Shown here piece after piece: positions 52,484 through 63,122 of a DNA stretch of 64,000 nt. Positions within the stretch are counted from its first letter, which is position 1; the number at the start of each line of letters is the position of its first letter. The position numbers and the translations under genes are program-made. Source of the stretch: Streptomyces sp. P3 (lineage in GTDB: Bacteria > Actinomycetota > Actinomycetes > Streptomycetales > Streptomycetaceae); contig NZ_CP028369.1 in the NCBI RefSeq assembly GCF_003032475.1, positions 5,828,001 through 5,892,000 on the forward strand, read 5' to 3'. The notes under the pieces were generated by a model. That model was given only the letters and a program-made list of their open reading frames with translations, was not told the origin of the DNA and did not search any database.

Positions 52484-53209
52484 GTGCAGTTGCGTCTTCC
52501 CTCCTCCATATCCGAAGCACAGCGGTGTCTCGCCGAGGGCGCGGTGCCCGTCGGCGGCGCCACCCTGGTGTGGGCGGGATGGCAGCGGGACGGCTTTCCC
52601 GAGCAGGCCGTGTCGCTGCGCAGGCTGCCCGAGGCCAACGCGGTCGGACCCGAGGAACTCGGCGGGGCCGTCCTGCTGCACCGCGTCGACGCGACCGTGC
52701 CCGAGGTGCTGCACCGGGCGGCCGGCGGAGTGGGCACGGGCGCCGTACGCCGGGCGGCCACGGTCGGCGGCAACATCGTCGGCAGCACCCTGCGTTGTCT
52801 GCTTCCCGCCGCCCTCGTACTCGACGCCCGGGCCACGGTCCTGACCGCCGACGGCGTCTACGAGACCGACCTGGCCGAACTGCTGGCCAAACGCCTCGTG
52901 CTGCTCGCCCTGCGCTGGCGCACACCGCTGGTCAGCGGCTACCGCAAGCTGGAGGGCGAGGCGGGCGGCGCGCCGCCCCTGGTCGTCGCCGCCGCGCTGC
53001 ACCGCGGGGACGACGGCCGTGCCCACCTGCGGGTGGCCGTCCGCGACGGCTACGACGTGCTCAGCGGGAGCGCCCCGTACGAGCCCGGCACCGGCGCAGA
53101 GGAGATGCTGCGCGCCCTGGAGGGCACGGAGCTCGGTGAGTTGCCCGCCGGCGCCCGGGACGCCGTGCACGCCCAGGTCGTCGAGGTGCTCGCCCGCACC
53201 GCCGGCTGA
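52484..53209 (+). CDS. Orphan FAD subunit of molybdopterin dehydrogenase type
   Basis: This 241-residue protein matches the FAD-binding subunit of xanthine/CO dehydrogenase-type enzymes. VPVGGATLVWAGWQ and later VRRAATVGGNIVGSTLRC are the two FAD pyrophosphate loops of PF00941, and the C-terminal CO-dehydrogenase flavoprotein domain covers about 160-235. It is shorter than the usual 280-300 residues. No molybdopterin or 2Fe-2S subunit gene is adjacent, so it is an orphan; the partners may lie elsewhere, or it may work alone as a flavoprotein. It starts at GTG 52484 and shares its promoter region with the divergent GNAT gene. Confidence 0.85.
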   Translation: MQLRLPSSISEAQRCLAEGAVPVGGATLVWAGWQRDGFPEQAVSLRRLPEANAVGPEELGGAVLLHRVDATVPEVLHRAAGGVGTGAVRRAATVGGNIVGSTLRCLLPAALVLDARATVLTADGVYETDLAELLAKRLVLLALRWRTPLVSGYRKLEGEAGGAPPLVVAAALHRGDDGRAHLRVAVRDGYDVLSGSAPYEPGTGAEEMLRALEGTELGELPAGARDAVHAQVVEVLARTAG

Positions 53210-53525: not shown

Positions 53526-54482
53526 ATGACCATCGGTGAACACCTCAAGGCGCTCCACGGGCTGCCCGCCTACACGTTTCCCGGCGCCGAGCACCAGCCG
53601 CGGCCGGTCGAGCCGGACGCCGTGGCCTGGCGCGTCACCAGCGACGTCTACGACGCCGACGAGAAGTGGACGGACGCGTTCGCCCGCTTCTGCGCGGCCG
53701 TCGACACCACGCGCGTGAAGGCACTGATCGTCGGAGCGTGGGAGGAGGCCTACGAGGACGACCCGGCCCCCGTCGTCGAGGCGCTGACCGCGGCCCGGGA
53801 CAGGTTCCCGGCCCTGCGCGCGCTGTTCTTCGGCGACATGGTGATGGAGGAGTGCGAGATCTCCTGGATCAACCAGACCGACGTCACCCCGCTCCTGACG
53901 GCGTTCCCGGCGCTGGAGGAGTTCGGGGTGCGCGGCGGGTCCGGGCTGCGTTTCCCCGCCCTGAGTCACGGCGCACTGCGCCGGCTGGTCATCGAGACGG
54001 GCGGACTGCCCGCCGAGGTCGTGCGCGGAGTGGCCGGCAGCGACCTGCCCGCGCTGGAGCACCTGGACCTGTGGCTCGGCACGCCCGAATACGGCGGCGA
54101 CAGCGAGGCGGCCGACCTCGAGCCGATCCTGTCCGGCGCCCGGCTGCCCAGCCTGCGGCACCTGGCCCTGCGTAACAGCGAGATGCAGGACGCGGTGGCC
54201 GTCGCGGTCGCGGCGGCCCCGGTGGTGGCCCGGCTGGAGGTGCTGGACCTCTCCATGGGCGTGCTGACGGACGAGGGCGCGACCGCCCTGCTCGGCGGAC
54301 AGCCGCTCACCCATCTCAAGAAGCTGGACCTGCACCACCACTACCTCGGCGAGCCGCTCCAGGAGCGCGTCCGGCAGACCCTGGAGGCCGCGGGCGTCGA
54401 GGTGGACCTCGACCGCGGCGACGCCGAGGAGGACGCGGACGGCGACGGCACGGTGTGGCGTTACGTCGCCGTCGGGGAGTGA
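53526..54482 (+). CDS. STM4015 family LRR-like protein
   Basis: This 318-residue protein begins at ATG, 7 bases after GGGAG, and is the first gene of the five-gene operon. The C-terminal 200 residues have leucine-rich-repeat character: LPALEHLDLWLGTPEYG, LPSLRHLALRNSEMQDAV, LEVLDLSMGVLTDEGATAL and LTHLKKLDLHHHYLGEPL. The N-terminal 100 residues are mixed alpha/beta (ALIVGAWEEAYEDDPAPVVE). No catalytic motif is seen, so it is probably a binding or scaffold component for the enzymes encoded downstream. NCBI calls this family STM4015 after the Salmonella gene; no function is established. It overlaps the next gene by 4 bases. Confidence 0.88.
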   Translation: MTIGEHLKALHGLPAYTFPGAEHQPRPVEPDAVAWRVTSDVYDADEKWTDAFARFCAAVDTTRVKALIVGAWEEAYEDDPAPVVEALTAARDRFPALRALFFGDMVMEECEISWINQTDVTPLLTAFPALEEFGVRGGSGLRFPALSHGALRRLVIETGGLPAEVVRGVAGSDLPALEHLDLWLGTPEYGGDSEAADLEPILSGARLPSLRHLALRNSEMQDAVAVAVAAAPVVARLEVLDLSMGVLTDEGATALLGGQPLTHLKKLDLHHHYLGEPLQERVRQTLEAAGVEVDLDRGDAEEDADGDGTVWRYVAVGE

Positions 54483-55636
54483 GCGACGAAACCATGGACC
54501 GCACGCCTGCGCCGGTGAGTGATCCCGTGCCGCGACTCGCGGTGGTCGCCAACCCCGAGAACCGCCGGGTCGCCCTCTTCGAGGAGGCCGTGCGGACGGC
54601 CGGGCTGCCCGCCCCGCGGGTCGTCCCCTGGGCGGACGTCCTGCGCGCCCGGGGGGCCGACTTCGCCGTCGACGAGATCGTCCGGATCGACTCGCCGGGG
54701 GAGAACCGCGAGGTCGACCGGATGCTGCGGGGCGCCCAGGACCCCACCCGGGTCGAGGGTTCGGCCCGCTGGTACGCCGGATTCCTCGCCGCCGTGCGCA
54801 GCCTGCGCGGCGGCGTCCGCCTCACCGACCCGGACGACCTGGCCGTGCTGTTCGACAAACGGCTCTGCCACGGCGTCCTGCGCGCTGCGGGCGTCCCGGT
54901 GCCCGCCTCGCCCACCTCGGGTCCGGACGGCCTGCCGGTGCGCGGCTGGGACGACGTGCGCGCCGCGATGCGCGAGCACCGGATGCCCCGGCTCTTCGTG
55001 AAGCCGGCGCACGGGTCGTCCGCGTCGGGGGTCCTCGCCGTCGAAGCGGGCGGCGGCGGCCGGATCAGGGCCACCACCTCCGTCGAACTGACCGTCGGCG
55101 GCGGCCTGTACAACTCCCTGCGGGTGCGCCGCTACGAACGCGAGCGGGACGTCGCGGCCGTCGTCGACGCGCTCGCCCCGGACGGACTGCACCTGGAGCG
55201 ATGGCTGCCGAAGGCCTCCCAGAGCGGCCGGGCCGCCGACCTCCGGGTCGTGGTGGTGGCCGGCCGCGCCACCCACGCCGTCGTCCGCACCAGCCGCTCG
55301 CCCCTGACCAACCTGCACCTCGGGGGCCGCCGCGGTGATCTGGACACCGCCCGCGAGGCCGTCGAGGCCGCGGGCGCCCGCTGGGCAGACGTCCTCGGCG
55401 TGTGCGAGCAGGCCGCGGCCTGCTTCCCGCGCACCCTGTGCGTCGGCGTCGACCTGCTGCCCGCCGTCGGCTGGCGCAGGGCCGCGATCGGCGAGGTCAA
55501 CGCCTTCGGCGACCTGTTGCCCGGGCTCACCGGTCTGCCCGGCGGCGGGGCGGAGGGCCGGGACACGTACGCGGCCCAGGTGGCGGCCGTGTCGCGCGGT
55601 CGCCTCCCGCACGGAACAGGAACACCGCATGCCTGA
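54479..55636 (+). CDS. STM4014 family ATP-grasp-like protein
   Basis: This 385-residue protein starts at GTG overlapping the upstream stop (GTGA); an ATG 15 bases later is an alternative. The fold reads as ATP-grasp: a pre-ATP-grasp Rossmann-like start (RLAVVANPENRRVALFEEAV), DPDDLAVLFDKRLCHGVLRA, then RLFVKPAHGSSASGVLAVE (the ATP-binding lysine and glycine loop), LHLERWLPKAS and DLRVVVVAGRATHAVVRTS. CVGVDLLPAVGWRRAAIGEV and NAFGDLLPG take the place of the metal-binding Asp/Asn. ATP-grasp enzymes join a carboxylate to an amine or thiol. In this operon it may ligate or modify the same substrate as the radical SAM enzymes; the assignment rests on motifs only. Confidence 0.85.
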   Translation: MSDETMDRTPAPVSDPVPRLAVVANPENRRVALFEEAVRTAGLPAPRVVPWADVLRARGADFAVDEIVRIDSPGENREVDRMLRGAQDPTRVEGSARWYAGFLAAVRSLRGGVRLTDPDDLAVLFDKRLCHGVLRAAGVPVPASPTSGPDGLPVRGWDDVRAAMREHRMPRLFVKPAHGSSASGVLAVEAGGGGRIRATTSVELTVGGGLYNSLRVRRYERERDVAAVVDALAPDGLHLERWLPKASQSGRAADLRVVVVAGRATHAVVRTSRSPLTNLHLGGRRGDLDTAREAVEAAGARWADVLGVCEQAAACFPRTLCVGVDLLPAVGWRRAAIGEVNAFGDLLPGLTGLPGGGAEGRDTYAAQVAAVSRGRLPHGTGTPHA

Positions 55637-56516
55637 GCCCGACATGAACGACGTCGTCGGCAGCCACGACATCCTCCTGGTCACCCTGGACACCCTGCGG
55701 TACGACGTGGCCGCCGAGCTGGCGGAGGCGGGCCGTATCCCGCACCTCGCGCGCCACCTCCCGGACGGCCGCTGGGAGCGCCGGCACGCCCCGGGCAGCT
55801 TCACCTACGCCTCCCACCAGGCCGTCTTCGCCGGATTCCTGCCCACTCCGGCAGCCCCGGGACCGCATCCGCGCCTGTTCGCGGCGAGTTTCGCCGGCAG
55901 CGAGACCACCGCCGGCGGCACTTTCGTCTACGACACGCCCGATCTGGTCTCCGGTCTCGCGAAGGCGGGCTACCACACCGTCTGCGTGGGGGGCGTGGGC
56001 TTCTTCAACAAGCAGGGTCCGCTGGGCTCGGTACTGCCCGGTCTGTTCCACGAGTCCCACTGGGCACCGGAGTTCGGCGTCACCTCGCCGGAGTCCTTCG
56101 AGAACCAGATCGCCCGCGCCGAGCAGACGCTCCGCGAACTCCCGCCCGAAAAAAGGCTGTTCCTCTTCGTGAACGTCTCCGCGCTGCATCAGCCGAACTG
56201 GTTCCACCTGCCCGGTGCGACCCGCGCGGCAGGCGACAGCCGTGAGACGCACGCCGCCGCGCTGGAGTACGTGGACCGGCACATCCCGCGGCTGTTCACC
56301 GCCGCGAGCAGCAGACGCCGCTGCTTCGCGATCGTCTGCTCCGACCACGGCACCGCCTACGGCGACGACGGCTACACCGGTCACCGCCTGGGCCACGAGT
56401 CCGTGTGGACGGTGCCGTACGCCCACTTCTTCCTCGACCCCTCACCCGCGGACCCCGTACCCCTCGACCCCGCACCCCGTGATCCCGCAGCCCGTCCGAC
56501 GGAGACCGCCCGATGA
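55629..56516 (+). CDS. STM4013/SEN3800 family hydrolase
   Basis: This 295-residue protein has the alkaline phosphatase/sulfatase superfamily core. HDILLVTLDTLRYDV carries the first metal Asp pair. RHAPGSFTYASHQAVFAG resembles the nucleophile region, where T or S replaces the sulfatase Cys. CSDHGTAYGDDGYTGHRLGH holds the second metal Asp-His set. It should cleave a phosphate or sulfate ester. There is no signal peptide, so it acts in the cytoplasm. The start (ATG, after AGGA) overlaps the STM4014-type gene by 8 bases and its stop overlaps the STM4012-type gene by 4. The C-terminal tail is Pro/Asp-rich. Confidence 0.88.
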   Translation: MPEPDMNDVVGSHDILLVTLDTLRYDVAAELAEAGRIPHLARHLPDGRWERRHAPGSFTYASHQAVFAGFLPTPAAPGPHPRLFAASFAGSETTAGGTFVYDTPDLVSGLAKAGYHTVCVGGVGFFNKQGPLGSVLPGLFHESHWAPEFGVTSPESFENQIARAEQTLRELPPEKRLFLFVNVSALHQPNWFHLPGATRAAGDSRETHAAALEYVDRHIPRLFTAASSRRRCFAIVCSDHGTAYGDDGYTGHRLGHESVWTVPYAHFFLDPSPADPVPLDPAPRDPAARPTETAR

Positions 56517-57871
56517 GCACCACCGAGCCGGTCACCCGCACCAGCCCGTACCAGCACTACGTCTACGCCTACCCGCACAAGACGGCCTACCGGCCGCTTC
56601 CCGACCGACCCCTCCTCGCGGAGCTCTGGGCGAGTGAACCCAAGGACGCCCTCTCCCTCTATCTGCACATCCCGTTCTGCGAGGTCCGCTGCGGGTTCTG
56701 CAACCTCTTCACCCGCATCGGCGCCCCCGACGGCCTCACGGGCGCCTATCTGGACGCGCTGGAGCGGCAGGCCGCCGCCGTGCGCGGCGCACTGGGGGAG
56801 GGGGCCCGGTTCGCCACGGCCGCCTTCGGCGGCGGCACGCCCACCTTCCTCACCGCCGCCGAGATGGAGCGCCTGTGCGACATCGCCGAGCACCGCATGG
56901 GCGCCGACCTGCGCGCCGTCCCGCTCTCCGTCGAGGCCTCGCCCGCGACGGCCACCGCCGACCGGCTCGCCGTCCTCGCCGACCGCGGCGCCACCCGGCT
57001 CAGCCTGGGCGTGCAGAGCTTCGTCGACGGGGAGGCCCGGGCCGCCGTACGCCCGCAGCGCCGCGCCGACGTGGAGGCGGCGCTCGGGCGCGTGCGCGAG
57101 GCCCGCATCCCGGTCCTCAACATCGACCTGATCTACGGCATCGACGGCCAGACCGAGCAGAGCTGGCTGCACTCGCTGGACGCGGCGCTCGCCTGGCGGC
57201 CAGAGGAGCTCTACCTCTATCCCCTCTACGTGCGCCCGCTGACCGGTCTCGGCCGGCGCCACCCGGCCGGCGGCCCGAGGGCCGGCTTTGATGCGGCCTG
57301 GGACGAGCAGCGCCTGACCCTGTACCGGGCGGGGCGCGACCACCTCCTCGCGCACGGCTACACCCAGCAGTCCATGCGCATGTTCCGCCGCGCCGACGCC
57401 CCGCCGCAGGGTGCCGACGACTACGCCTGCCAGACCGACGGCATGATCGGCCTCGGCTGCGGCGCCCGCTCCTACACGTCGGGGCTGCACTACTCCTTCG
57501 ACTACGCCGTGGACATGCACCAGATCCGGGGCATCATCGACGACTACGTCGCCGGCGACGCGGCCGGCTTCGCCCGCGCCCAGGTCGGCCACCGGATGAG
57601 CCCGGCGGAGGCGCGTCGCCGGTACCTCCTGCAGTCGCTCCTCCAGGCCGACGGGCTGCGCCTGGACGACTACCGGGACCGCTTCGGCGGCGCCCCCGCC
57701 GACGACTTCGGCCCCGAGCTCGAGCGGTTCGCCGACCGGGGCTGGCTGACCGACGCCGATCCGACCGCCCTGCGACTCACCCCCGAGGGCCTCGCCCACT
57801 CCGACGCCGTCGGCCCCGAGCTCTTCTCCCCGGCCGTGCGGACCGCCATGGCCGCCTACGAGCGGAAGTGA
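56513..57871 (+). CDS. STM4012 family radical SAM protein
   Basis: This 452-residue enzyme has the radical SAM cluster motif C56-x3-C60-x2-C63 in LYLHIPFCEVRCGFCNLF. It continues with the HemN/HemW-like layout: FGGGTPTFLTAAEMERLC, VEASPATATADRLAVLADRG, TRLSLGVQSFVDGE and VLNIDLIYGIDGQTEQSW. The C-terminal HemN-like domain (about 320-450) includes GLGCGARSYTSGLHYSF. It is related to coproporphyrinogen dehydrogenase/HemW by fold but named separately. The 4Fe-4S cluster would generate a 5'-deoxyadenosyl radical from SAM; the substrate is unknown. It starts at ATG overlapping the previous stop by 4 bases. Confidence 0.93.
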   Translation: MSTTEPVTRTSPYQHYVYAYPHKTAYRPLPDRPLLAELWASEPKDALSLYLHIPFCEVRCGFCNLFTRIGAPDGLTGAYLDALERQAAAVRGALGEGARFATAAFGGGTPTFLTAAEMERLCDIAEHRMGADLRAVPLSVEASPATATADRLAVLADRGATRLSLGVQSFVDGEARAAVRPQRRADVEAALGRVREARIPVLNIDLIYGIDGQTEQSWLHSLDAALAWRPEELYLYPLYVRPLTGLGRRHPAGGPRAGFDAAWDEQRLTLYRAGRDHLLAHGYTQQSMRMFRRADAPPQGADDYACQTDGMIGLGCGARSYTSGLHYSFDYAVDMHQIRGIIDDYVAGDAAGFARAQVGHRMSPAEARRRYLLQSLLQADGLRLDDYRDRFGGAPADDFGPELERFADRGWLTDADPTALRLTPEGLAHSDAVGPELFSPAVRTAMAAYERK

Positions 57872-57881
57872 CCCGGCCGTC

Positions 57882-58820
57882 ATGGATCTGACCCTGCTCT
57901 ACCGGGGCCCGCTCGCCTCCTGCGACTACGACTGCCCCTACTGCCCGTTCGCCAAGCGCCGGGACTCCACCGCCGAGCTGCGGGCCGACCGCGCCGCCCT
58001 GGAGCGGTTCGCCGCGTGGGCGGCGGAGCGCACCGACGACCGGCTCTCCCTCCTGTTCACCCCCTGGGGCGAGGGCCTGGTCCGTTCCTGGTACCGGCGC
58101 GCCCTCGCCGACCTCTCCCGCCTGCCGCACATCCGCCGGGTCGCGATCCAGACGAATCTCAGCTGCCGCACCGACTGGCTGGCCGAGGCCGACACGGACA
58201 CCCTGGCGCTGTGGTGCACCTACCACCCGGGCCAGACGCCCTACGACCGTTTCCTCGCCAAGTGCCGTGACCTGGCCGACCGGGGTGTCCGCTTCAGCGT
58301 CGGCGTGGTCGGTCTGCCCGGACACCGGGAAGCGGCCCGCCGGCTGCGCGCCGACCTGCCCGCCCACGTCTACCTGTGGATCAACGCGGCCGAGGGGCAC
58401 ACCTACACGGACGCCGAGGCCGACGACTGGACCTCGCTCGACCCGCTCTTCCCGTACAGCCGCCACCCGCACACCAGCGCCGGCCTGCCCTGCCGCACGG
58501 GGGAGTCGGTGATCTCGGTCGACGGGGAGGGCACCGTGCGGCGCTGCCACTTCGTCCGCGCCGAACTGGGCAACCTCTACGACGGCTCCTATCGCGCCGC
58601 CCTGCGCCCGCGGGCGTGTCCGCTCGCCGTCTGCGACTGCCACATCGGCTACGTCCACCTGGAGACGCTGCCGCTGTACGACGTCTTCGCCGGCGGCGTC
58701 CTGGAGCGCATTCCGGCGGCCGCTCCCGCGCGGCACCCGGCCCCGCCACGGCACCCGGTCCCCGCACAGCACCCCGCCCGCGTCACGAGGATCGCGACGC
58801 GGGCGGGGACGACGGACTGA
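57882..58820 (+). CDS. STM4011 family radical SAM protein
   Basis: This 312-residue second radical SAM enzyme has the cluster motif C14-x3-C18-x2-C21 in LASCDYDCPYCPFAKRR. VAIQTNLSCRTDWLAEAD and ALWCTYHPGQTPYDRF follow, and GVRFSVGVVGLPGHREAA lies in the core barrel. A C-terminal Cys set (LPCRTGESVISVDGEG, VRRCHFVRAELGN, CPLAVCDCHIGY) looks like a SPASM-type auxiliary Fe-S site, common in peptide-modifying radical SAM enzymes. The gene starts 10 bases after the STM4012-type stop and ends the operon. A perfect 13-bp hairpin is encoded within its last 17 codons. Confidence 0.92.
   Translation: MDLTLLYRGPLASCDYDCPYCPFAKRRDSTAELRADRAALERFAAWAAERTDDRLSLLFTPWGEGLVRSWYRRALADLSRLPHIRRVAIQTNLSCRTDWLAEADTDTLALWCTYHPGQTPYDRFLAKCRDLADRGVRFSVGVVGLPGHREAARRLRADLPAHVYLWINAAEGHTYTDAEADDWTSLDPLFPYSRHPHTSAGLPCRTGESVISVDGEGTVRRCHFVRAELGNLYDGSYRAALRPRACPLAVCDCHIGYVHLETLPLYDVFAGGVLERIPAAAPARHPAPPRHPVPAQHPARVTRIATRAGTTD
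58772..58808. terminator. Perfect 13-bp hairpin inside the operon's last codons
   Basis: CCCCGCCCGCGTC and GACGCGGGCGGGG pair perfectly with an 11-base loop, ending 9 bases before the STM4011-type stop codon. It also lies 35 bases downstream of the convergent GH30 stop, so it can act as a shared bidirectional terminator. Confidence 0.8.
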
Positions 58821-58842: not shown

Positions 58843-60870
58843 TTACGGCGTCACGTCCGTGACCCTCCAGCGCTGGTTGGAACCGGAGTTGGCCAGCCAG
58901 GTGGTGACGGCCGCGCCCTCGTTGGTCGCCTGGCCGCCGACCTCGAGGAGACGTCCGGTCGCCACGTTGACCAGGGTCCACGTGCTGTCACCGGTGGTCG
59001 ACATGATCCACTCGGTGGCGGGGTCCCGCTCGCCCGTGTCGGGCTCGACCACCGGCACGTTGTCGCGGACGGCGAGGCGCTTGCCCTCGGCCGGGTTGGC
59101 GAAGACGTACCGCTGGCGTGCGCCCTTCTCGCCGTGCCGTGCGTCGAGCTGCCACCGCTGCGCGGTGCTGCCGTTGGCCGAGCCGATCACCAGGCTCCTG
59201 CCGTCGGCCGCGACGGTCACCGCCTTGCCGCTCTGCACGCCGGTCAGCGTGTAGGAGTGGCCCTTGCTGAACAGGCCCGCGTTCTTCGCGACGCCCGAGA
59301 CGCCCTTGACGGCGAAAGAGGTCACCGACTGTGCCGGGACGGTGTAGGTGGCCTTGCCGTCGACGACCTTGACCGGGGCCTGCTGCTTCAGCTTGCCGTC
59401 GGCGCTGGTCACGGTCGGTGTGACGGTGGCGTTGCGCTTGACGGTGCGGAACTTCGACAGGTCGATGGTGACCGTGCGGGCCGCGGTGGTGGAGTTGACG
59501 TGGACGAGGGAGACGCCCTTGCCGCCCTTCGTCACGGCGGCGGCGCTGGAGGTGTCGTCCACCTTGATGAGCTTGTCGCCGGGCTTGATGAAGTGCGTGA
59601 AGTTGCGGGCCGTGTCGAACTTGGTGTTCGTGTAGATCGGGCACGACTTCAGGGTGTCCGACTTCGTGCAGCTGAACGGGAGCTGGATCTCGCCCCAGTT
59701 GCCGCCCTTGGCGGACTCGCCGCCCGGCTTCATGTTGTCGTAGTCCTCGACCGGCTGCCAGAACACCCAGGCGCTGGGCTCCAGTTCACGCAGGTCGTTC
59801 ACCATCTGCTGGGCGAGCCCGAGGCCCGGACGCATGTCGGTGAAGCTCTGCCCGTCGCCCCAGTCGCCCTCCACCTCGCTCATCCACAGCGGCTTGTCGG
59901 CGGCCTTGGCGAGGTCGCGGACGGTGGTGCGCTGGCCGGTGCCGTAGGTGTGGACGTTCATCTGGTCCACGAGATCCCTGGAGGCCTGCGAGTAGGAGTT
60001 CCAGTTCGTCGCGAAGATGGACGGGTTGGTCTCGTCCATCGCCGATATCTTCGCCTTGGTCTTCGCCTTCTTCAGCGCGGGCGCCAGCGCGGCGAGCACC
60101 TTCTGCTGGAGCGCGGGACCGATGTGGGCGCCCTCCTGTCGGCCGCCGACCGGTTGGCCGCCGGCGTCGAGCCGGGTGCCCCAGTAGCCGGTGTTGGGCT
60201 CGTTGAACGGGTCGACGGTGTCGACCTTGATGCCCTCGGCCTTCTCCAGCCGCTTGGTCGCGCCCGCGATGTAGGCGGCGAAGTCGTCGACCGAGTCGGC
60301 CTTCAGCTGGTCGGTGTTGGAGTTGAACCCGCCCGAGACGTAGCCGCTCTCCGTCATGAACCACGGCGGGGAGTTGCTGAAGGTCTCCCAGTGGGTGATG
60401 TCCTTCTTGATGCGGTCGACCCACCAGCGCTGGGTGGCGTCGGCGTTCTTGTTCCAGTCCGCCGGGTCGTCCGCGCTCCACCAGTCGGTGTCCTCGCGGG
60501 TGGTGCCCGCGGGCGCCTTCCACCAGCCCTCGACGGCGCCGCCCGCGCGCAGGTAGTCCTTCACGTCCGGCGCGTTGCCGCCGCCGATGTTGTAGCGGGC
60601 GATGTTCAGCGCGAGGCCGTCGTCGCCGAAGAGCAGTTCGGCGAGCTTCTCGCGGACCGCCGGCGGGTAGTCGCCGGTGGCGTTCGCGAACCAGACCAGG
60701 CTGGTGCCCCAGCCCTCGAACTTCTCCTGCCGGTACGACGGGTCCGGCGTCACGGTGACGGCGGCCTCGGCGTGTGCCTGTACGGGGACGCTGAGAAGCG
60801 CGGCCCCGGTGGCCAGGGCGGTGAGTGCGGCGGCCCCGAGGGTCCGTCTGCTGCGGTTGCGGCGTGCCAT
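58843..60870 (-). CDS. Secreted GH30 galactanase-like enzyme with ricin-type lectin
   Basis: This 675-residue protein starts at ATG 5 bases after GGGAG and has a signal peptide (1-35, TALATGAALLSVPVQAHAEA). The catalytic (beta/alpha)8 plus beta domain (about 36-540) is GH30-like: FEGWGTSLVWFANATGDYP, NIARYNIGGGNAP and SNSPPWFMTESGYVSG. The acid/base is E224 in DPFNEPNTGYWG and the nucleophile is probably E332 in LWMSEVEGDWG. The pattern fits the endo-beta-1,6-galactanase branch. The C-terminal about 130 residues form a ricin B-type lectin with AQRWQL and NQRWRV repeats, binding galactose-like sugars. It lies downstream of GH42 and the sugar-binding protein on the same strand, consistent with arabinogalactan breakdown outside the cell. 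Confidence 0.9.
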   Translation of the reverse strand: MARRNRSRRTLGAAALTALATGAALLSVPVQAHAEAAVTVTPDPSYRQEKFEGWGTSLVWFANATGDYPPAVREKLAELLFGDDGLALNIARYNIGGGNAPDVKDYLRAGGAVEGWWKAPAGTTREDTDWWSADDPADWNKNADATQRWWVDRIKKDITHWETFSNSPPWFMTESGYVSGGFNSNTDQLKADSVDDFAAYIAGATKRLEKAEGIKVDTVDPFNEPNTGYWGTRLDAGGQPVGGRQEGAHIGPALQQKVLAALAPALKKAKTKAKISAMDETNPSIFATNWNSYSQASRDLVDQMNVHTYGTGQRTTVRDLAKAADKPLWMSEVEGDWGDGQSFTDMRPGLGLAQQMVNDLRELEPSAWVFWQPVEDYDNMKPGGESAKGGNWGEIQLPFSCTKSDTLKSCPIYTNTKFDTARNFTHFIKPGDKLIKVDDTSSAAAVTKGGKGVSLVHVNSTTAARTVTIDLSKFRTVKRNATVTPTVTSADGKLKQQAPVKVVDGKATYTVPAQSVTSFAVKGVSGVAKNAGLFSKGHSYTLTGVQSGKAVTVAADGRSLVIGSANGSTAQRWQLDARHGEKGARQRYVFANPAEGKRLAVRDNVPVVEPDTGERDPATEWIMSTTGDSTWTLVNVATGRLLEVGGQATNEGAAVTTWLANSGSNQRWRVTDVTP

Positions 60871-61034
60871 CTGTGCTCCCAACTGCGGTGCGGTCGCTGT
60901 GGTGGGCCCCTGCGGCCGCGCGGGCGGCAGGGGATGGCCCCCGGCCGCGGGCGCATGCCGTGCCGGGGAGTCGTGGGGGGTGCGGTGACGACGAGGTGCT
61001 GTGCGGCTTCCGCCGGCGCGTGCTTCGAAAGTCC

Positions 61035-61055
61035 CGTCTGCCCTCCCGGCAGACG
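61035..61055 (-). terminator. Hairpin after GH42 gene
   Basis: CGTCTGCC and GGCAGACG form a perfect 8-bp stem with a CTCCC loop, 3 bases after the GH42 stop on the minus strand. CTTCGAAAG, a LacI-like half-palindrome, lies just beyond it (61023-61031), in front of the GH30 gene. Confidence 0.6.
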
Positions 61056-61058
61056 ACG

Positions 61059-63122
61059 CTACTGTCGAAACGCGCCCTGGCGCGCGGGCTGTCGCAGGAC
61101 GGCGACCTCCCGTGGACCGAGCATCAGGGCGCCGTCCGTGCCCCTGGAGCCGATCAGGATGTCTGCCTCCAGCCCGGCCACCGGCACCGTCGCGTCGGTC
61201 CGGTTGACGAGGAACAGGAACCGTTCCCCGGCGCCGCGGCGGACGGTCAGCTCCACCTTGCCCCGCACGTCGGCGGGGAGTTCACTGCTGACGCCGGCCG
61301 GCTCCAGCAGCCGGGGCAGCAGAGAGCGGAGGCCGTCGACGCCGAGCCGGGTGGAGACGTAGGAGGCGGAGCCGGCCCCGGTGGGCCGCCGGGTGACTGC
61401 GGGGCGGCCGGCGTGCACTCCGGTGCGGTAGCGCGCCAGCACCTCGGTGTCGTCGCCGGTCACGTCGATCCGGTCCGTCCACAGCGTGCCCCAGGTGGAG
61501 TCGTCGAGCTCCACGCTCTCCCCGGCGAGCAGCGGGCCGAACTCCTCGATGCGGACGCCGAGCAGGTCGCGCAGGGCGCCCGGGTAGCCGCCGAGCCACA
61601 CGTGGTCGTTCTCGTCGACGATCCCGGAGAAGTACGTGGTGACGAGGTGGCCGCCCTGCTCGACGTACCGGGTGAGCTCCTTGGCGAGCTCGGCGGGGAC
61701 GACGTGCAGCACGGGCGCGACGAGCACCTGGTGCCGGGAGAGGTCGGCGCGGGTGGTGACGAGGTCGGCGCGGACGCCGAGGGCGAGCAGCGCCGAGTAC
61801 CAGTCGAGCGCCTCCTGCCGGTAGTCCAGCAGGGCGGTGGGGTGGGAGTCCTGCTCGCCGGCCCACCACGACTCCCAGTCGTAGAGGATGCCGACCAAGG
61901 CCGGTTCGCGCTCCGAACCCGCCACCGGGGCGAGGGTCTTGAGCTGGGCGCCGAGGTCGGCTACCGCACGGAAGAGGTCGCTGTCGGGGCCGGCGTGCGG
62001 AACCATCGCCGAGTGGTACTTCTCGGCGCCCGCCGCGGACTGCCGCCACTGGAAGAAGCACACCGCGTCCGCGCCGTGCGCCACGTGCAGCAGCGAGTCG
62101 CGGGCCAGGTCGCCGGGCCGCTTGGCCACGTTGACGGGCTGCCAGTTGACCGCGCTGGTGGAGTGCTCCATCAGGAACCACGGCCGGCCCCCCGCGATGC
62201 CGCTGACGAGGTTCGCGGAGAACGACAGCTCGTCGCGGTCCTGCGGGCCGGGGTGCACGTAGTGGTCGTTGGAGACGAAGTCGATCTCGCTCGCCCAGTC
62301 CGCGTAGTTCATGCCCTTGGTGCCGCCCATCACCATGAAGTTGGTGGTGACCGGGATCGCGGGGGTGATCTCCCGCAGGATCTCCCGCTCGGCGACCAGG
62401 TGGTCCTTGAGGGCGTCCGAGGAGAACCGCTTGAAGTCCAGCTGCTGGGTCGGGTTGGGGTGCGAGGCGGCCAGCCGGGGCGGCAGGATCTGCTCCCAGT
62501 CGCTGTAGCGCTGCGACCAGAACGCCGTTCCCCAGGCGTGGTTGAGTGCGTCGAGGCTGCCGTAGCGGGCGCGCAGCCAGACCCGGAAGGCGCGGGCGGC
62601 GTCGTCCGAGTGGTCGTAGACGTTGTGGCAGCCCAGCTCGTTGGAGACGTGCCAGGCGACGAGGGCCGGGTGGTCCTTGTAGCGGCCGGCGATCTCCCGG
62701 ACCAGCCGCAGGGCGTGCTCGCGGAAGACGGGCGAGGTGGGCCGCCAGTGCTGGCGCGCCCCCGGCCACAGGGTCTCGCCGTTCGCCGTGACCGGCAGGA
62801 TCTCGGGGTGCGCGGTGGTCAGCCACGGGGGCGGGGAGGCGGTGGCGGTGGCCAGGTCCACGCCGATCCCGCCGGCGTGCAGCAGGTCCATGACCTCGTC
62901 GAGCCAGCCGAAGTCCCAGGTGTCCGGGCCCGGCTGGATGCGGGCCCAGGAGAAGATCCCCACGGAGACGATGGTGACGCCGGCCTCCTGCATCAGCCGG
63001 ACGTCCTGCTCCCACACGTCCCTGGGCCACTGCTCGGGGTTGTAGTCGGCGCCGTAGGCCAGACGCGGAGCGGGGTCACCGTCCGCCCCGCTCAGCATGC
63101 GGGACTGGAGGGTGGAGATCAT
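61059..63122 (-). CDS. GH42 beta-galactosidase
   Basis: This 687-residue cytoplasmic enzyme has no signal peptide. It begins LAYGADYNPEQWPRDVWEQD, the typical GH42 start, and has acid/base E162 in AWHVSNELGCHN and nucleophile E319 in PWFLMEHSTSAVNWQP. The trimerisation and C-terminal beta domains (about 385-680) are complete, and length is normal. It should release galactose from imported galacto-oligosaccharides. GGAAGGA lies 5 bases before the ATG. The sugar-binding protein gene lies 115 bases upstream on the same strand and the GH30 gene 188 bases downstream, so the three form a functional cluster, with hairpins in both gaps. Confidence 0.95.
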   Translation of the reverse strand: MISTLQSRMLSGADGDPAPRLAYGADYNPEQWPRDVWEQDVRLMQEAGVTIVSVGIFSWARIQPGPDTWDFGWLDEVMDLLHAGGIGVDLATATASPPPWLTTAHPEILPVTANGETLWPGARQHWRPTSPVFREHALRLVREIAGRYKDHPALVAWHVSNELGCHNVYDHSDDAARAFRVWLRARYGSLDALNHAWGTAFWSQRYSDWEQILPPRLAASHPNPTQQLDFKRFSSDALKDHLVAEREILREITPAIPVTTNFMVMGGTKGMNYADWASEIDFVSNDHYVHPGPQDRDELSFSANLVSGIAGGRPWFLMEHSTSAVNWQPVNVAKRPGDLARDSLLHVAHGADAVCFFQWRQSAAGAEKYHSAMVPHAGPDSDLFRAVADLGAQLKTLAPVAGSEREPALVGILYDWESWWAGEQDSHPTALLDYRQEALDWYSALLALGVRADLVTTRADLSRHQVLVAPVLHVVPAELAKELTRYVEQGGHLVTTYFSGIVDENDHVWLGGYPGALRDLLGVRIEEFGPLLAGESVELDDSTWGTLWTDRIDVTGDDTEVLARYRTGVHAGRPAVTRRPTGAGSASYVSTRLGVDGLRSLLPRLLEPAGVSSELPADVRGKVELTVRRGAGERFLFLVNRTDATVPVAGLEADILIGSRGTDGALMLGPREVAVLRQPARQGAFRQ

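Follow-up and report, generated by a model that had tools for sequence, protein, structure and literature searches.

A five-gene operon of Streptomyces sp. P3 with a leucine-rich-repeat protein ending in a conserved glutamate as candidate carrier for a LysX-like ligase

Introduction

The ligases LysX and ArgX load the gamma-carboxylate of the C-terminal glutamate of LysW, which they recognise by means of the GSWGR motif, and an E54A substitution in an archaeal ArgW resulted in arginine auxotrophy (PMC10433800). A gene set that resembles this arrangement in several features is described here. It is the operon STM4015-STM4014-STM4013-STM4012-STM4011, found in a 64,000-nucleotide stretch (positions 5,828,001 to 5,892,000 of contig NZ_CP028369.1, hereafter the window, to which coordinates refer) of the 9.85-Mb, single-contig genome of Streptomyces sp. 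P3. Its gene families are common and have examples in Salmonella, gut Bacteroides and soil Actinomycetota, yet they bear placeholder names. The original prediction, made from the letters of the window, knew of no pathway assigned to them, and no function of the STM4011-STM4015 families was found in the open literature: in the parts of the two sources available, STM4013.S is listed as a sigma-54 binding site (PMC3844500) and STM4015 stands in a table of selection tests (PMC2784778), in both cases with no function given. The same prediction saw no obvious precursor gene nearby. This view has to be revised, since the first protein of the operon, STM4015, with its conserved free C-terminal Glu tail is the best candidate substrate or carrier for a LysX/RimK-like ligase. 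This likely substrate is the new point of this study.

Results

STM4015 (53526..54482, plus strand) matches the NCBIfam model NF038076 with 415 bits at a cut-off of 275 and is modelled as a well-defined leucine-rich-repeat (LRR) solenoid with a mean predicted local distance difference test score (pLDDT) of 87, which falls to about 53–58 in residues 301–318. Its closest solved fold and relative is 2ra8, an uncharacterised protein of Bacteroides fragilis. The repeats are followed by a variable acidic linker (residues −25 to −8; 54405..54458, plus strand), recognised by its content of aspartate and glutamate (D+E) and by low pLDDT, and then by the conserved tail RYVAVGE, which together with the stop codon occupies 54459..54482 of the plus strand and whose terminal Glu is the proposed charging site.

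The last residue is Glu in 232 of the 233 STM4015 proteins compared, among them proteins of Actinomycetota, Deinococcota, Bacillota, Bacteroidota, Pseudomonadota and one cyanobacterium. This count keeps two C-terminal pieces of frame-broken genes and leaves out four rows: one STM4015 cut by the locus end, two frame-broken pieces and P0225. The latter, a fusion of STM4015 with STM4014, consists of two Bacteroides-like pieces joined inside the LRR part and looks like an assembly chimera. The sole protein with another last residue, P0153, has an end unlike that of the family and comes from an assembly whose longest contig has 997 bases. Terminal Glu was also found in all 26 representatives of clusters at 60% identity, where the entropy of this position is 0, and in 14/14 at 50%. 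Copies from other Streptomycetaceae genomes were counted separately, and 35 of these 37 further copies or pieces (20 stretches) end in Glu, the remaining two being a diverged copy of genome G312 (L151) and a frame-broken piece of G306. In this last genome (L158) the whole operon copy is present but frame-broken. The terminal Glu is not a by-product of overlap with the following start codon, because both GAG and GAA occur as its codons and all three stops, TGA, TAG and TAA, follow it; the idea that Glu is kept merely through this overlap was therefore rejected.

Other positions kept in the tail are −3 (V/L/I), −6 (mostly Y) and −7 (mostly R). In Actinomycetota and Deinococcota most tails read R-[YF]-x-x-[VLI]-x-E; in Bacteroidota, Bacillota and Enterobacteria the usual form is [YN]-[PA]-x-[hydrophobic]-T-E. 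The linker before it varies and is acidic, with D+E making up 36% of its residues versus 16% in the body (24 representatives, i.e. the 26 minus two C-terminal pieces of frame-broken genes). Two tandem STM4015 copies are encoded in 19/78 Streptomyces-type loci, in one of them with a frame-broken second copy, and longer tandem arrays stand directly before STM4014 in genomes G296 (six copies, L149:1546-7380) and G322 (five copies, L148:2883-7666). When copies are compared within one genome, the bodies in these two arrays are 51–52% identical on average and the linkers 38–39%, while the last seven residues are 83% (G296) and 74% (G322) identical and every copy ends in Glu. Two fusions with a doubled LRR part bear a single tail, at the very C-terminus, and lone STM4015 paralogues away from the operon retain it. 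A homologue on a Calothrix plasmid (L105:2014-3288; 424 aa) is extended by a further N-terminal region and ends in the tail RYCSVAE; in the 12-kb stretch around it no second gene of the operon was found.

Five genomes were searched with a DNA pattern of tail plus stop that had been derived from Actinomycetota tails, the reversed pattern serving as control. The tail pattern gave 24 matches, 21 of them with a true stop, and 20 of these are all 20 STM4015 copies of the five genomes. The 21st lies out of frame in the overlying open reading frame (ORF), so no other gene was matched in frame; the reversed pattern gave 8 matches. In the entire genome of Streptomyces sp. P3 STM4015 is the only match.

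The adjoining gene, STM4014 (54479..55636, plus strand), has three in-frame start options, GTG 54455, GTG 54479, which gives the 4-base overlap with STM4015, and ATG 54494, all with the end at 55636. Its product reaches 460 bits with NF038074 (cut-off 175) and no Pfam model at E ≤ 0.001. Structure prediction, one of the checks proposed with the original prediction, bore out the ATP-grasp fold of the STM4014-type protein. In the profile search against solved sequences, three LysX entries come on top, followed by a biotin carboxylase and then RimK. The first fold match is DcsG, a small-molecule ligase, and rows 2–6 of the VIA-align ranking are ArgX, LysX and RimK entries, the first of these a LysW complex. 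The best fold matches also include RimK and RimK:RpsF; Foldseek ranks PsnB with its precursor peptide high, and MdnC was matched as well. Thus, by profile and fold STM4014 is an ATP-grasp ligase near LysX, ArgX and RimK. The GSWGR motif was found in none of 206 STM4014 sequences, nearly all of them from Streptomyces and its kin.

The five genes lie on the plus strand at 53526–58820; consecutive genes overlap by 4, 8 and 4 bases, and a 10-base gap precedes the last. This layout, as originally described, was confirmed by ORF calls and by matches to all five NCBIfam families. STM4012 (56513..57871, plus strand; 4-base overlap with STM4013) exceeds the cut-off of NF006067 (649 bits versus 380) and bears the Pfam domains Radical_SAM, that of radical S-adenosylmethionine (SAM) enzymes, and HemN_C. 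Its profile matches include HemN (1olt, 3.3e-53) and NocN (9p2u, 6.7e-32), while it stays below the NCBIfam cut-offs of the named HemN, HemW and HutW models. STM4011 (57882..58820, plus strand, after the 10-base gap) reaches 417 bits with NF038073 (cut-off 200) and remains under the cut-off of Pfam Radical_SAM (24 of 29.5 bits). The cluster motifs are conserved, as had been expected: CxxxCxxC in 88/88 STM4011-type sequences and CxxxCxFC in 86/90 STM4012-type sequences or pieces. In the ten STM4011 sequences of alignment A1, C204, C222, C246, C251 and C253 are invariant along with CxxxCxxC, and the C-terminal part gives a weak profile match to SkfB (6efn, E 1.5e-4). The canonical SPASM domain has seven Cys. 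No SPASM Pfam domain was found in STM4011 of the window at E ≤ 0.001, and its further invariant Cys are five, not seven. The division into one HemN-like and one SPASM-like enzyme nevertheless holds, given HemN_C in the former and the further Cys in the latter.

STM4013 (55629..56516, plus strand; ATG start, 8-base overlap) matches NF038075 with 432 bits (cut-off 250) and belongs to the alkaline phosphatase superfamily. It had been taken for a phosphate or sulfate ester hydrolase. Pfam Sulfatase (PF00884), a family that spans phospho- and sulfo-enzymes, is matched with 31.6 bits at a cut-off of 25. The best profile matches are the nucleotide pyrophosphatases/phosphodiesterases (NPPs) 7n1s and 2gsn, and sulfatases rank behind them (6hhm, 1.3e-5). 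FT[YW]xxH is present in 82/85 and DHGT in 84/85 sequences or pieces. In alignment A6, inspected by eye, the invariant Thr of the former motif falls at the nucleophile place; it lines up with the stretch LTFPNH of NPPs, whose Thr we take to be the NPP nucleophile. Formylglycine (type I) sulfatases are marked by CxPxR or SxPxR; such an enzyme was rejected, since this motif was not seen and Thr occupies the nucleophile place. Judging by its sequence, STM4013 leans to an NPP-like phospho-type enzyme, the Pfam label Sulfatase notwithstanding, and the earlier assignment shifts towards its phosphate side.

A search of the plasmid collection by tblastn with STM4011 gave 13 records, from Streptomyces, Embleya, Nonomuraea, Methylobacterium, Deinococcus, Paenibacillus, Bacteroides and Salmonella. 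The order 4015-4014-4013-4012-4011 is complete in 12 of them, in four phyla. The 13th (Bacteroides finegoldii, L020:7513-11530) seems to have an internal deletion that starts within STM4013 and reaches almost to the end of STM4012, with pieces left, the STM4012 piece being recognised by eye; STM4015 of this record bears an N-terminal WGR domain. A scan of one genome per species found STM4011 relatives encoded in at least 588 stretches. Among 80 loci of genome contigs, all from Streptomyces or close kin, 78 were examined (two of 3.5 kb or less were dropped) and 71 encode all five genes. Five of the other seven are cut by a contig end, and in two, L068 and L101, genes are absent for no visible reason.

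In 121 Streptomycetaceae genomes STM4011 exceeds its family cut-off in 58 and STM4015 in 62: both occur in 58, only STM4015 in 4 and neither in 59, while STM4011 alone occurs in 0 (Fisher p = 3.8e-30, uncorrected for shared descent). G310 and G333 contain STM4011 fragments below the cut-off without STM4015. This tight co-occurrence and the kept order agree with the earlier claim that the genes form one co-conserved unit. Its distribution is patchy, because only 6/296 genomes of a phylum-wide sample have STM4011 over the cut-off. The Salmonella operon had no near match among 20,395 records of E. coli.

The search for a co-conserved sixth gene, proposed with the original prediction, was successful in relatives, where the operon is adjoined by the genes of a DUF6745 protein (PF20530) and of sm, as we call a protein of about 98–112 aa (pair loci include L014:1977-3441, L017:10921-12230, L107:8480-9816 and L108:9001-10749). 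The pair was not found in the locus of the window, nor was DUF6745 over the cut-off in the Streptomyces sp. P3 genome. DUF6745 is encoded in 61/78 Streptomyces-type loci and in the fetched stretches of 7/13 plasmid records, with sm in all seven. Streptomyces has the pair upstream of the operon in divergent orientation and Methylobacterium upstream on the same strand; in Nonomuraea and Deinococcus it follows the operon on the other strand. DUF6745 exceeds the cut-off in 55 of the 121 genomes, in 51 of them jointly with STM4015 (Fisher p = 2.7e-18, uncorrected for descent). Deinococcus ficus and Skermanella have the pair without the operon within 9 kb; in D. ficus a gene of the glutathionylspermidine synthase family lies about 3 kb from it. 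Nine sm sequences share invariant H47, H-[DE]-E-H and QRE, mostly with GHxH, and no convincing solved relative of sm was found (6jbx at E 0.15). In Salmonella the gene of a haloacid dehalogenase (HAD) phosphatase overlaps STM4011, and in Bacteroides an HAD domain is fused to STM4011.

Upstream of the operon in the window (52484–53209) a protein with the FAD-binding domain of molybdopterin dehydrogenases is encoded; downstream, on the opposite strand (58843–63122), there are a hydrolase like those of glycoside hydrolase family 30 (GH30) with a ricin-type lectin domain and a GH42 beta-galactosidase. A known anti-phage defence system was considered and rejected: no full-length PADLOC match was obtained among seven proteins scanned, the only match being a partial one of STM4012 (94 residues, PDC-M51A at 2.3e-6).

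Discussion

Based on these data one can assume that the operon encodes a carrier-protein pathway, in which STM4014 places a load on the terminal Glu of STM4015, both radical SAM enzymes modify this load and STM4013 trims phosphate; we give this reading a probability of about 0.48. By analogy with LysX acting on LysW, STM4014 would activate a carboxylate of the terminal Glu with ATP and join it to the amine of a small molecule. The SPASM-like STM4011 and the HemN-like STM4012 would then modify the tethered molecule or the adjacent tail, and STM4013 would remove a phosphate or nucleotide group, as would the adjoining or fused HAD phosphatase in the Salmonella and Bacteroides records. The free-Glu tail would thus serve as a common handle, while the LRR bodies diversify. 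Such a pathway is the simplest account of all observations, though only its anatomy is shown.

Three genomes that hold a tailed STM4015 without STM4014 or STM4011 over the cut-off speak against a strict link, and a tail confined to genomes with the ligase was rejected on their account; they may have lost these genes recently or use the tail in another way. The C-termini of DUF6745 proteins are themselves conserved, as are the last residues of sm and STM4012 in the same loci. The case therefore rests on a combination of features: terminal Glu across phyla, the variable linker before it, restriction of the tail to one family in five genomes and the type of the neighbouring ligase.

The same anatomy may be read in other ways. 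STM4015 could be a precursor of a ribosomally synthesised and post-translationally modified peptide (RiPP). STM4011 and STM4012 would then cross-link or methylate the tail, STM4014 would tailor it, and cleavage would release it as a small peptide product or cofactor, for which the logic of pyrroloquinoline quinone (PQQ) and mycofactocin is a model. The closeness of the C-terminal part of STM4011 to SkfB and of STM4012 to NocN, both RiPP enzymes, is in line with this, as is the presence of the ATP-grasp RiPP ligases PsnB and MdnC among the fold matches of STM4014, and the tail itself is short, modelled with low confidence and often copied. RiPP precursors, however, usually conserve the leader and vary the core, whereas within the arrays the body of STM4015 varies more than its tail. 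The tail has no invariant Lys, Ser or Thr that could be the partner in a graspetide link, the nine plasmid records with gene tables (incomplete as these tables are) show neither a protease nor an exporter as constant neighbour, and the tail persists in the three genomes without the ligase. On the whole, a peptide precursor appears rather unlikely.

Tail modification might also be the end product, that is, a RimK-like addition or a prosthetic group on an LRR protein that then works in regulated binding; making or maturing this group would fall to the radical SAM enzymes. RimK and RimK:RpsF stand among the best fold matches of STM4014, and RimK extends a protein's C-terminus (PMC10092738). Paralogues outside the operon keep the tail, and diversification of LRR bodies is expected for recognition modules. 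Two radical SAM enzymes and an NPP-like hydrolase nevertheless exceed the needs of simple glutamylation, and the LRR body is without a known binding partner; this explanation, too, appears rather unlikely. Quite improbable is a tail that is a mere docking or stability signal, with enzymes acting on a free small molecule, e.g. a nucleotide sugar, and the LRR protein holding them together. DcsG as first fold match of STM4014 and the tails remaining in three genomes without this ligase would fit, but neither the chain end at Glu, with nothing after it, in 232/233 proteins nor the profile closeness of STM4014 to LysX and RimK is explained. Nothing specific was found in favour of the nucleotide-sugar route that had been suggested for the operon.

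Returning to the carrier pathway, one may tentatively extend it to a new carrier system of at least six bacterial phyla (Bacteroidota being included via the deleted copy and Cyanobacteriota via a lone STM4015 only), in which exchangeable LRR proteins share a C-terminal handle, a LysX-like ligase charges the terminal Glu of this handle, and on it a conserved small molecule or prosthetic group is built by two radical SAM enzymes. This possible generalisation turns RiPP logic round, the body being variable and the tail constant. If the LRR tail is the charging site, a large, diversified scaffold joins the few known carriers for amino-acid-derived molecules, and the route can be tested by a single mass measurement on one protein pair. 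Judged by titles and the beginnings of abstracts, none of the open papers listed (20 of 34 matches) describes a comparable LRR carrier system.

Comparison with described systems

The operon agrees with LysX/ArgX-LysW in its ATP-grasp ligase, placed in the same neighbourhood by profile as well as fold, in a partner protein with an acidic stretch before the free Glu at its end, and in further enzymes encoded alongside. LysW, however, is a small zinc-binding protein, while STM4015 is an LRR protein of about 280–360 aa, with tails like RYVAVGE or PMITE and neither the EDWGE tail nor the zinc-binding Cys of LysW; GSWGR of LysX/ArgX is absent from the 206 STM4014 sequences, and the other enzymes of the operon, radical SAM and NPP-like, are not those of the LysW pathway. 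The operon thus resembles the LysX-LysW system but is no member of it, since the LysW motif, the zinc site and the recognition motif of the ligase are all missing. The solved member of the STM4015 family, 2ra8 (Bacteroides fragilis Q64V53, from structural genomics), has a family part that stops with PMITE at residue 354 of 362 and is followed by 8 residues, presumably a tag; it has no assigned function or partner, and no paper on it was found in the open literature. SkfB and NocN are similar to the C-terminal part of STM4011 and, together with HemN, to STM4012, respectively, but no short precursor peptide was seen, and STM4011 and STM4012 share one operon with a carrier-like LRR protein. RimK-RpsF offers an ATP-grasp enzyme acting on a protein C-terminus, as predicted for STM4014; RimK, however, adds Glu chains to ribosomal protein S6 (RpsF), whereas the operon encodes a dedicated LRR partner and radical SAM enzymes. 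In the pearlin and 3-thiaglutamate pathways a small molecule is built on the C-terminus of a ribosomal scaffold (PMC9303977; PMC9016710), as proposed here for STM4015. Pearlins employ aminoacyl-tRNA and small scaffolds, while the operon combines an ATP-grasp ligase with an LRR solenoid as the putative scaffold.

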